Source: Nitrosopumilus sp. (GTDB lineage Archaea; Thermoproteota; Nitrososphaeria; Nitrososphaerales; Nitrosopumilaceae). From it: DNA of 64,000 nucleotides. Under the pieces are notes generated by a model. The model did no database searches. It was given only the letters and a program-made list of their open reading frames with translations, and was not told where the DNA came from. Made by a program: the position numbers and the translations under genes. This document shows, one piece after another, positions 29,830 through 62,361 of this stretch (the stretch's first letter is position 1; each line of letters begins with the position of its first letter). The stretch is taken from positions 1 to 64,000 of the forward strand of contig NZ_JAILWA010000006.1 of assembly GCF_025699255.1 (NCBI RefSeq), in the 5' to 3' direction.

Positions 29830-30930
29830 ATGTACAAAATGTTTGTTATGATTTTAGTGTTGGTTATGGTGTCATCGTCTGTGAATCATGTATATGCTGC
29901 ACAACTCGATGCTGCAATCGCAAAAGATTCCCAAGAGTTTACTCCAACATACCAGTTTACAAGAATCATTACCATTAACCATGATGGTGATTCCGAACTG
30001 GAACAATTGATTGAAAATGACAAAATATTTTTTGATATTAACAAAGATAATACTGCAATAGTCTCTCAGATAAATTCAGAGATTAGGCAAAAATCTTTTG
30101 CAAAGGTTACTGATGTAACTGGAACATATTCTGCAATCATATCTGTTCAGGAAAAATCAATCGGAATTGAATACAGAATAATTCTAAAACCCACAATCCA
30201 AAATCACTTTGTTGGTGATTTTGATACTTTGGATTCACAGTGGAGGGGCTTTTCCATAGATGATGCCATTCCTGTAGATACAATTCACGGTGTATATGAT
30301 ATCAATTCTCCTGCCAGCGCACTTGCATTATCTAATGTAAAAGCACTAGAGTATCTATCTGGTACTGGCGCCATGGAGGTTCTCCAGACTCCTCTAATTG
30401 ATGCTGCAGGAATTTCTCAATTTCCTCTACATCGATGGGAATCTATGTTTGATCCTACTGCCAAGATGAGCGAGACTGCTGATTTTGGTTTCTCAGGCAC
30501 GGTAATTACCAATTATTCCATGGGGATTTGTACTGTCTACCTTGGATTGTGCGAAGACAAGGAGATGTATCTGGAATTTACGATAGATGGGGAAGATTAT
30601 TCAATTCGCTCAATAGAATCCCAAGACGATGCCACAATTGTCATTGAAGGATATGTCAGCGAATCAAAACTAGGTCAAGTCGAGATATTTGCAATTCAGG
30701 ATGCTCCTATGATTGATCCGGAAAATGACATGCAGGCAGTTACACTGTATGGTATGGCAGGGCTGGGAGTTGCAGCAACTGTTGCATTCTTTGTGGTTAG
30801 TGACAGAAAGGCAAAACGAACCAGCTCAGAGCAGACTGGGATTGATCCTGCCAATTTACAATCTGTTCCAATATCAAGCTCCGCTGGAGGATACAGGACA
30901 AACAGAGGAACATCGCAACTAAAGAATTAA
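29830..30930 (+). CDS. Secreted, C-terminally anchored surface protein
   Basis: 366 residues: signal peptide (MFVMILVLVMVSSSVNHVYAAQ), a ~290-residue extracellular part with alternating beta strands, and a hydrophobic segment VTLYGMAGLGVAATVAFFVVSD near residue 300 followed by a basic, serine/threonine-rich ~45-residue cytoplasmic tail. No catalytic motif seen. Two cysteines (ICTVYLGLCED) are close together and could form a disulphide. First of a run of membrane-associated genes. Confidence 0.65.
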   Translation: MYKMFVMILVLVMVSSSVNHVYAAQLDAAIAKDSQEFTPTYQFTRIITINHDGDSELEQLIENDKIFFDINKDNTAIVSQINSEIRQKSFAKVTDVTGTYSAIISVQEKSIGIEYRIILKPTIQNHFVGDFDTLDSQWRGFSIDDAIPVDTIHGVYDINSPASALALSNVKALEYLSGTGAMEVLQTPLIDAAGISQFPLHRWESMFDPTAKMSETADFGFSGTVITNYSMGICTVYLGLCEDKEMYLEFTIDGEDYSIRSIESQDDATIVIEGYVSESKLGQVEIFAIQDAPMIDPENDMQAVTLYGMAGLGVAATVAFFVVSDRKAKRTSSEQTGIDPANLQSVPISSSAGGYRTNRGTSQLKN

Positions 30931-59460: not shown

Positions 59461-60345
59461 TTGAACCTTAAGAAATTTGTTGAAGACAATGGTTTCTCTG
59501 ATTTTCCTGTTGGATTAGGAGGATGTAGGACTTCTAACCTGTCTTTTGATTCTTGTGATTATGATCTATTTGTTTTTGATGAAAAATCTGAACCTTCTAG
59601 TATTATGAAATTTGATGACGAATTTGTTGTAATACATCATGCATCTTTATCAGAAACTAATTCAGAAAAACTTCTTCAATATCATCAATTGGATATCATT
59701 CATGATGAATCTTGGAATTTACGAATGTTTATTTCACAAATTGATAAAAAACACGTTTCTCTGTTTTCTGACTTTGCAAAAAATTGTTTGATAGAGTCCC
59801 AATTCTGTTGTCAAAAAACTAAAGAATCTATTCAATCCTCTGATGCATTTGCACCTTGTTGGCAAAAATGTGCCAGTGTTTATTTGGCAAATGCGATTTC
59901 TTCAATTAACCATCTTCGTCCTAGTCCTTCTCATATGCTTGATGTGTTTAGAAAATTAGAAAAAAATCCCATCAATGAACATATTTCAATCCTCAATCAA
60001 ACTGTAGGTATCGAGAGAGCCACTCCAATTTTGTTAGAACGTATGCTCAAATCAACTATTGGTTTTTCTGACTTGGTTGAGAACAACAACCACTCTGAAA
60101 TTATTCAACAAAAACATGATTTTTTTGTAAAAAACTCGATGCTATCTGATTGCTATTTCTATTTCGTATTTGTAAACAAAGAAAACTATGTTAAAATTAA
60201 AAATACATTAAATCGAAATCAGGATCTTATACACATTCTAAAAATAGCCTTTGATGTTGAGGCTGACTCAAACCTTCTTGAACAACAATCAGAAATTATT
60301 CAAAAATCTTGTAATGAAATCCTTGAGACCCTAACAAGTGCGTAG
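59461..60345 (+). CDS. Pol-beta-superfamily nucleotidyltransferase-like protein
   Basis: 294 residues. The N-terminus VGLGGCRTSNLSFDSCDYDLFVF has the GG(S)x...DxD signature (G20-G21, D33-x-D35) of MNT/CCA-like nucleotidyltransferases; the third acidic residue is not obvious. The remaining ~200 residues are helical. A box A (TTTATAGA at 59431) precedes the TTG start. Could modify RNA or small molecules, or be an MNT-type antitoxin; no HEPN partner is visible beside it. Confidence 0.6.
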   Translation: MNLKKFVEDNGFSDFPVGLGGCRTSNLSFDSCDYDLFVFDEKSEPSSIMKFDDEFVVIHHASLSETNSEKLLQYHQLDIIHDESWNLRMFISQIDKKHVSLFSDFAKNCLIESQFCCQKTKESIQSSDAFAPCWQKCASVYLANAISSINHLRPSPSHMLDVFRKLEKNPINEHISILNQTVGIERATPILLERMLKSTIGFSDLVENNNHSEIIQQKHDFFVKNSMLSDCYFYFVFVNKENYVKIKNTLNRNQDLIHILKIAFDVEADSNLLEQQSEIIQKSCNEILETLTSA

Positions 60346-60398
60346 AGTTCTATCTTAATGTACTAACCTTTTAAAATAAGTAAAATCCCTAGTTTACC

Positions 60399-60542
60399 AT
60401 GGTAGATCAAGCATGTGGATGCGAAGCAGATAGCGGCGATCCAGATTACTCATGTGATTGTGCAATGCAAGGTCATTGTATATGCAGTGCTGATTGCAAA
60501 TGTAGTACAGACGTTTGTAAAGAAGCAACTAAAGATATGTGA
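60399..60542 (+). CDS. Metallothionein-like cysteine-rich protein, 47 residues
   Basis: ATG frame with nine cysteines and one histidine: ACGC, SCDC, HCIC, DCKC and VCK. Four C-x-C pairs in 35 residues and almost no hydrophobics are the pattern of a metallothionein that wraps metal-thiolate clusters. A box A (TTTTAAAATA, 60369-60378) lies ~26 nt upstream, so it is a leaderless gene. It would bind Cu(I) or Zn(II) in the cytoplasm. It is not obviously homologous to bacterial SmtA. It is too short for standard ORF cut-offs; the longer frame across the same DNA (60415-60675) is in another register and lacks sense. Confidence 0.75.
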   Translation: MVDQACGCEADSGDPDYSCDCAMQGHCICSADCKCSTDVCKEATKDM

Positions 60543-60578
60543 TTGGATTAGTTCCAATACTAATTTTTTATTTTTTGA

Positions 60579-60746
60579 TTATTCTTCCTCTTCCTCAAAG
60601 CCCCATGATTTAACTAATTCCTTTTGGAACTTGTCTGCTTGTTTTTCATCTAATGCAAATCCACAATTTTTGTGAGTAGGAACAACAGTCATTCCATCTA
60701 ATTTGAATTCTACTTCAAACAAGTGAACTTTTGGGCATTCGCACAT
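60579..60746 (-). CDS. Small CxC-containing protein, 55 residues
   Basis: ATG frame MCECPKVHLFEVEFKLDG then MTVVPTHKNCGFALDEKQ ... ELVKSWGFEEEEE. Three cysteines and two histidines could bind one metal. The protein is otherwise soluble and ends acidic. It is convergent with the metallothionein-like gene, 36 nt between stops. Not recognised. Confidence 0.55.
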   Translation of the reverse strand: MCECPKVHLFEVEFKLDGMTVVPTHKNCGFALDEKQADKFQKELVKSWGFEEEEE

Positions 60747-60861: not shown

Positions 60862-62361
60862 TTGATCAGTTTGAAAGGCTCATTATTACTTATTTCAGCT
60901 ATCACTGCACTTCTTTTAGGTTCACTATCAATTCCATCTGCTTTTGCACAATTCCAATCTGGAGGTGTTTCTTCTGATACTGTTCCTGATGGCAGTTCTT
61001 GGTATGCTGGTGAGGGTCTCAAACAAGGTGATTTCTTTTCTTATTCAATGTGTCATGTTGATTACAAAGAATGCTCCAAATTTGAAATGGATATGTGGAT
61101 AAAAGGTGACAAACAAGTTGGCAGTGAAACAAAATGGTTGGCTGAAGTTGCAGTTTTTGATGGCAAAAAAGTAATTGTTGGTGAAATGGAGCTTGGAAAA
61201 ATTGCTCCTGAACCAACTGGCGGTAGTACTGAATTAGGCGTTTATAGAGGAGCTTTCAAATCTTCTATAGTTTGGTTATCTGCTTTTGCAACTTCTGATG
61301 ATAGCTCTGGTGGAAAGGGACCAAAAAAATTTAGTGATAAATCTTGGGGTAAGATTGGAAACATTGGTGGGGAACAAGTAGTGCCAATGAAAATTGAAAA
61401 TATTGTTGTTCCTGCAGGTTCATGGGAAACAGTTCAAGTAGGATGGAAAACTGGCGGTGTTACAAGTAAGGTTTGGATCGTAGATGATTTTCCATTTCCA
61501 ATAAAAGCTAAAACATTCACTCATGTTTCTGAAGGAATTCCTCCAACAGAATACGAGTTTACTCTGTTAGATTACAAAGAAAACGTTTCCAAATCTCCAA
61601 TTGCACAATATCACTCATCTGCAGACGAGTTTCAAGCTGCTGGATGTGAAACTGATTTTGAAAAAGAAGTTAGTGTAAAGAAACCTACAAAGAATTTTGA
61701 TTATCAAATTCATGCATTTTATGGCCCTGAAGATCCTGTCAAAGGATGTGAAATGCAATGGCTAATCAAATTTATCAGCAAATATGATGACACTGAATTT
61801 TTGAATCAAGTTCAATTTGATTTCCTAGTGGTTGATGATAATTTGAAGCCTTTAAGATCTATTGCACAAGAAGAAGGCAGGGATTATCTTTATTCTCCAT
61901 CTGGACAATACATACTTGATATGATTGTAAAAGAAGATCCTGGCACTGTTAATTATGTTGTTTGGGTTTATGGATTAGCTCGTGAAGGCATAGTTCCAAA
62001 TGTTGCATCTGATTTTCTTAAAATCCCTGTAACAATTTATGCAGGTGATGGCACAATTCCTTCTATTCCTGATCCTGTTCCAACTCAAGAAATCCCCTCA
62101 TGGATTAAGAATAATGCAGGATGGTGGGCTGATGGGGCAATAGATGATGATTCTTTTGTCCAAGGAATTCAATTTTTGATCAAAGAAGGAATTATGAAGA
62201 TTCCTCCAACTTCTCAGGGTGCTGCTGGTGGAAGTAATGAAATCCCCTCATGGATTAAGAATAATGCAGGATGGTGGGCTGATGGGGCAATAGATGATGA
62301 TTCTTTTGTTGGTGGTATTCAATTCCTTATTGAAGAAGGAATTATGAGCGTATCTTCCTAG
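60862..62361 (+). CDS. Secreted protein with C-terminal IPSWIKNN repeats
   Basis: 499 residues, TTG start, signal peptide (LLLISAITALLLGSLSIPSAFAQ). The body is a ~370-residue beta-rich region (HVSEGIPPTEYEFTLLDYKENV, then QVQFDFLVVDDNLKPL), resembling a sandwich of two domains. The C-terminus has two copies of the IPSWIKNNAGWWADG unit (starting near residues 410 and 460), a repeat I associate with thaumarchaeal secreted proteins. Both units are encoded by an exact 71-nt repeat. Probably cell-surface attached; function unknown. Confidence 0.8.
   Translation: MISLKGSLLLISAITALLLGSLSIPSAFAQFQSGGVSSDTVPDGSSWYAGEGLKQGDFFSYSMCHVDYKECSKFEMDMWIKGDKQVGSETKWLAEVAVFDGKKVIVGEMELGKIAPEPTGGSTELGVYRGAFKSSIVWLSAFATSDDSSGGKGPKKFSDKSWGKIGNIGGEQVVPMKIENIVVPAGSWETVQVGWKTGGVTSKVWIVDDFPFPIKAKTFTHVSEGIPPTEYEFTLLDYKENVSKSPIAQYHSSADEFQAAGCETDFEKEVSVKKPTKNFDYQIHAFYGPEDPVKGCEMQWLIKFISKYDDTEFLNQVQFDFLVVDDNLKPLRSIAQEEGRDYLYSPSGQYILDMIVKEDPGTVNYVVWVYGLAREGIVPNVASDFLKIPVTIYAGDGTIPSIPDPVPTQEIPSWIKNNAGWWADGAIDDDSFVQGIQFLIKEGIMKIPPTSQGAAGGSNEIPSWIKNNAGWWADGAIDDDSFVGGIQFLIEEGIMSVSS
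62089..62159 (+). repeat. 71-nt exact repeat, copy 1
   Basis: Codes for the first IPSWIKNN unit. Identical to 62239-62309, 150 nt downstream and in the same frame. Confidence 0.9.
62239..62309 (+). repeat. 71-nt exact repeat, copy 2
   Basis: Codes for the second IPSWIKNN unit. Identity at synonymous positions shows recent duplication or gene conversion. Confidence 0.9.

Follow-up and report, generated by a model that had tools for sequence, protein, structure and literature searches.

A nine-cysteine, metallothionein-like protein conserved across Nitrosopumilaceae, with a second copy of its domain on a membrane protein

The window analysed in this study is a stretch of 64,000 nucleotides from a Nitrosopumilus contig. 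Towards its end lies a small gene whose translation is MVDQACGCEADSGDPDYSCDCAMQGHCICSADCKCSTDVCKEATKDM followed by a stop codon. The features around this gene are as follows.

59461..60345, + strand: syntenic upstream reading frame of 294 aa, with a nucleotidyltransferase-like motif (GLGGCR...CDYDLFVFD) recognised by eye
60363..60368, + strand: BRE-like CTAACC directly 5' of box A (position -33 is A in 96% and -31 is C in 83%, n=144)
60369..60376, + strand: box A (TATA element) TTTTAAAA, at -30 to -23 from the ATG
60399..60542, + strand: coding sequence, stop codon included, of the 47-aa metallothionein-like protein with nine cysteines
60414..60518, + strand: putative metal-thiolate domain, Cys6 to Cys40, with the spacing CxC-x10-CxC-x5-CxC-x3-CxC-x4-C
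60564..60576, no strand: T-rich stretch between convergent genes, a possible terminator judged from sequence only
60579..60746, - strand: convergent, conserved 55-aa protein (MCEC...H...THKNCG), possibly a second small metal-binding protein
60862..62361, + strand: syntenic downstream reading frame of 499 aa, probably secreted in view of its signal-peptide-like N-terminus

The preliminary description of this DNA had presented the frame as a 47-codon, leaderless gene with nine cysteines, and translation bears out both its coordinates and its counts: the cysteines form four CxC pairs (CGC, CDC, CIC and CKC) and one further residue, Cys40. The promoter is as described too. Box A is conserved in the 144 relatives aligned, with positions -29, -28, -25 and -24 kept in 97-100% of them, and because its spacing to the ATG is constant, transcription would be expected to start at or beside this codon; a leaderless transcript is thus the natural reading that the promoter supports. 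The claim that the gene goes unannotated is weak, since common prokaryotic gene finders can pick up open reading frames of 144 nt.

The neighbours on both sides are constant in about 95% of the 139 loci compared. The 294-aa frame is found upstream in 132/139 at a near-constant distance, the 499-aa frame downstream in 132/139, and the 55-aa protein in 129/139 (by tblastn); none of the three has a Pfam match, and the immediate neighbours of the nine-cysteine gene are not copper genes. In the 55-aa neighbour, Cys2, Cys4 and Cys28 are invariant in 128/128 sequences and His8 and His25 nearly so, making it a candidate for an unrecognised metal-binding protein; its link to the nine-cysteine protein is one of synteny. 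This neighbour is present in families f1, f2, f3 and f8 and weakly beyond, whereas the nine-cysteine gene is absent from f2, f3 and f8, so that the latter probably arose inside an older neighbourhood.

The distribution of the gene is sharply bounded. A profile search found it in 129 of the 132 genomes of its own family and in 0/168 in the rest of the order, and a phylum-wide sample gave 63/63 within the family against 0/335 outside; a search with the single protein among 61 relatives recovered the free gene or a membrane-tethered copy in almost every genome of the genus. Three family genomes gave no match; their completeness is 90-91% and they are split into 130-350 contigs, so assembly gaps may be the cause. 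Since the named carriers belong to Nitrosopumilus, Nitrosarchaeum, Nitrosotenuis and Nitrosopelagicus, we infer that the family is Nitrosopumilaceae. A genome as small as 0.8 Mb (G265) retains the gene. No viral contig encodes the protein, so nothing points to a viral accessory gene.

Within this range the sequence is strongly constrained. Loss of the cysteines in close relatives had been set beforehand as the observation that should refute the reading, and all 139 free copies keep nine, with codons that alternate between TGT and TGC. The median dN/dS, over 94 distinct coding sequences, is 0.095, compared with 1.96 and 0.89 in the other two frames; the 47-aa protein is under strong purifying selection, and its conservation goes far beyond chance. 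Shortness is the one property in keeping with a chance frame or a non-coding artefact. Against it stand the coding and cysteine conservation, the conserved promoter and the synteny, and also the composition of the window, in which one open reading frame has at least nine cysteines and at least four CxC within 36 residues while 40 base-shuffled windows hold none. We consider a chance origin refuted for practical purposes by the promoter and the coding conservation among relatives.

What kind of cysteine protein this could be is narrowed by the motifs that it lacks. CxxC is absent from the whole 47-aa sequence, which argues against the ligand set of a zinc ribbon or a [4Fe-4S] protein, and both of these were ruled out on that ground. 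Also absent from the protein are the CPxCG motif of haloarchaeal small zinc-finger proteins, the MxCxxC site of CopZ/HMA copper chaperones (PF00403, with no Pfam match either), any match to the copper-storage profile of Csp (PF03860/DUF326) and a secretion signal. Neither Pfam nor NCBIfam holds a family for the window protein or for any other member type, and none of them matches the animal (PF00131) or bacterial (PF02069) metallothionein profiles. Of the earlier reading as an archaeal metallothionein, then, the real gene, the cysteine pattern (its core spacing equals that of the beta domain) and the unlikeness to bacterial SmtA stand, whereas a match to known metallothionein profiles was not found. 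The protein is small, cysteine-rich and CxC-bearing, which agrees with the metallothionein class in size and cysteine content.

Comparison with structures points the same way, faintly. The family profile, searched against all PDB sequences, matched three chains, all of them metallothioneins, at E values of 2.5-7.3, which are not significant. The reversed window protein matched no metallothionein; it matched small disulfide-rich proteins, which the forward sequence does not. The likeness to metallothioneins is therefore a hint and not proof of homology, with convergence likely. Weak UBR-box matches of the single sequence in the PDB were not repeated by the family profile and were judged to be chance. 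AlphaFold2, run without metal, gave a mean pLDDT of 61 and no confident core, low values being weak evidence for a protein of 47 aa. Another possible role is that of a redox or iron-sulfur protein, in which the cysteines would form disulfides or hold a cluster. The richness in cysteine and the size are compatible with either, but the CxxCxxC of [4Fe-4S] proteins and any ferredoxin spacing are missing, the number of thiols is odd, there is neither secretion signal nor Pfam match, and it is only on reversal of the sequence that small disulfide-rich proteins are matched. We regard such a role as very unlikely.

The same domain occurs a second time in the genome, a point missing from the preliminary description, as are the restriction to one family and the conservation between the cysteines. 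On contig C11, a copy with 53% identity and all nine cysteines forms the last ~45 residues of a 455-aa membrane protein, which runs from a signal-peptide-like N-terminus through an ectodomain, one transmembrane helix, basic residues and a Gln/Pro-rich linker to the cysteine domain (AlphaFold2 pLDDT of the membrane protein, 40). The basic residues that follow the helix indicate that the tail probably lies on the cytosolic side. Every genuine tethered copy keeps the nine cysteines (57/57). The window itself holds a paralogue of this protein.

29839..30930, + strand: paralogue of the membrane protein without the cysteine tail, the main copy being on contig C11

A disulfide-rich secreted peptide was also considered and rejected: the 47-aa protein has no signal peptide and an odd number of cysteines, and the tether is probably cytosolic.

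The ectodomain and transmembrane part is more widespread than its cysteine tail. It is found in f1, f2, f3 and f8, only marginally in f10 and in none of the other listed families of the order; f2 and f8 presumably correspond to Nitrosocaldaceae and Nitrososphaeraceae, and f1, f2, f3 and f8 together to the ammonia oxidisers. Open frames from f2, f3 and f8 mostly stop close to the helix, at ~350-370 aa, and carry no long tail. Nitrosopumilaceae show three endings of the tail: the nine-cysteine domain, an RGSxPKGW-type motif and, in two genomes (loci L222 and L227, genomes G033 and G021), an unrelated domain of ~80 aa that replaces the cysteine tail and has no Pfam match over the cut-off. Some genera lack the tethered copy yet retain the free protein.

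Two versions of the domain can be told apart, T1 (DQACGCEAxSGDPxYxCDC...) and T2 (AACGCAAxxxxxxECDC...). In the genus, the majority of genomes combine a free T1 with a tethered T2, but several lineages carry T1 on the tether. On the tree of the ectodomain, tethered T1 needs at least three changes, three being perhaps one gain and two losses. The tethered domain thus appears to have been replaced by the version of the free gene about three times, and to have been lost or swapped elsewhere. Two genomes have tethered and free copies that share 97-98% DNA identity, and no orthologue in the set of eight genomes compared comes as close to either copy. The simplest reading of these sequences is ectopic gene conversion between the free gene and the tail, and selection for a shared partner could favour such conversion.

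Conservation extends to the residues between the cysteines. In T1 these are ~80-98% identical across genera (DQACGCEA, GDP.Y and CDCAMQG being nearly invariant), and residue 17 is Tyr in 109 and Phe in 5 of 114 sequences; classical metallothioneins are without aromatics, and in plain metallothioneins the residues between cysteines are usually not so conserved. The conserved residues make it unlikely that passive storage is the whole story, and a protein contact besides metal binding seems likely from the pattern. A dedicated Cu(I) metallochaperone, which would deliver to copper enzymes through a defined partner (the tethered domain or an importer such as CopD) rather than buffer the metal, would account for this conservation and for the repeated replacement that keeps the two domains alike, and the need for a further chaperone besides CopC has been voiced for N. 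maritimus (PMC7785015). However, nine thiols exceed the need of a two-thiol transfer site, the protein has no known partner, and the free form persists in some genera that lack the tethered one. We therefore see a metallochaperone as possible but somewhat unlikely.

The choice of metal is informed by a related short family of 35-38 aa, found in a minority of Nitrosopumilaceae (loci L060/L242, L246 and L250, in genomes G033 and G112), whose best PDB match is the beta domain of a crab metallothionein (E 0.12). In two genomes the short gene is convergent to a heavy-metal P-type ATPase, probably CopA, at ~30 nt and adjoins a CcdA/DsbD-like gene on its other side, and an HMA-domain protein lies near another locus (apart from the ATPase, these names were given by eye from translation). 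The short family is likely a copper-linked metallothionein of some Nitrosopumilaceae, to judge by these neighbours. Near short metallothionein-like genes (L198:396-731, - strand; L245:2330-2674, + strand) we also observed a protein of 111-115 aa with a cysteine-rich N-terminus (SGTCN.EEATCSCTSE..C.DCGCG), a probably helical remainder and no Pfam match over the cut-off.

A zinc protein without a copper role, either a Zn buffer or a Zn-stabilised interaction domain, must be weighed here. Mammalian beta domains bind Zn(II) with the same thiolate pattern, the conserved residues between cysteines fit an interaction domain, and the 47-aa protein is acidic, with His26 in most T1 copies. On the other side, it has no CxxC zinc-knuckle pairs and its short relative sits in putative copper clusters. 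The metal inventory of the family also speaks against zinc, though the heavy-metal ATPase model covers Zn and Cd pumps as well: DUF326 (Csp) was found in 0/30 Nitrosopumilaceae genomes against 7/14 in f8, and a heavy-metal P1B ATPase above the curated cut-off in 9/30 against 20/20 in f2, f3 and f8, with no heavy-metal P-type ATPase in the window's own genome. We judge a pure zinc protein unlikely. The absence of Csp and the scarcity of heavy-metal ATPases lend circumstantial support to a metal-buffer role. In the literature, N. maritimus tolerates more copper than known genes explain, and a comparison of marine ammonia-oxidising archaea found no copper efflux genes (PMC9723733).

Based on these results, we consider it probable that the protein belongs to a new, metallothionein-like family of Nitrosopumilaceae and serves in the cytosol as a thiolate buffer or shuttle, with Cu(I) a likelier metal than Zn(II); the metal binding, the copper and the cytosolic tail are predictions within this reading. 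The nine cysteines would enclose a soft metal as a thiolate cluster, for which the mammalian beta domain, also with nine cysteines, suggests a capacity of ~3 Zn(II) or four to six Cu(I), and the protein would buffer this metal in the cytoplasm. As a membrane protein carries the same domain on its tail, which is probably cytosolic, the free protein may also give metal to the tethered copy or take metal from it. In the 47-aa protein, Nitrosopumilaceae may have the cytoplasmic buffer for copper (or zinc) that had been missing. A bolder extension, which we put forward as doubtful, is a two-part thiolate relay in which the soluble protein and the module tethered at the inner face, whose likeness gene conversion maintains in some lineages, would replace the missing copper exporters and stores and feed or protect the copper-based energy metabolism.

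The energy metabolism of marine ammonia-oxidising archaea runs on copper. For the handling of an excess of this metal, a thiolate protein that is near-universal in precisely the Nitrosopumilaceae and falls in no known class is a concrete candidate. It would give archaea a lineage-specific metallothionein-like family. Its membrane-tethered twin is an unusual architecture: a metallothionein domain carried by a membrane protein in such fashion is not otherwise known to us. Searches of titles and abstracts found no report of a metallothionein in Nitrosopumilus or other ammonia-oxidising archaea, and no paper with the phrase "archaeal metallothionein".

Among known systems, the animal metallothionein beta domain (PF00131; PDB 2mrt, 1dft, 1m0j and 9q7p) shares with the archaeal protein the nine cysteines and a gapless CxC-x5-CxC-x3-CxC core. 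The archaeal protein differs in an extra CxC 10 residues upstream of this core and a single Cys 4 residues downstream, in its conserved residues between cysteines, its Tyr and its tethered form, and the match has an E value of 2.5 or worse. The Neurospora crassa type of fungal copper metallothionein has the same core spacing, with seven cysteines, a shorter chain and no acidic N-terminal part. Bacterial SmtA/BmtA (PF02069) are small, cysteine-rich and probably cytosolic, as here, and SmtA has a His-bearing zinc-finger part that the archaeal protein is without. Csp proteins are four-helix bundles of ~120 aa, unlike the 47-aa protein. Csp has been reported in Nitrososphaera viennensis (PMC7785015), and in that case, likewise here, a thiolate copper store is proposed for an ammonia-oxidising archaeon.
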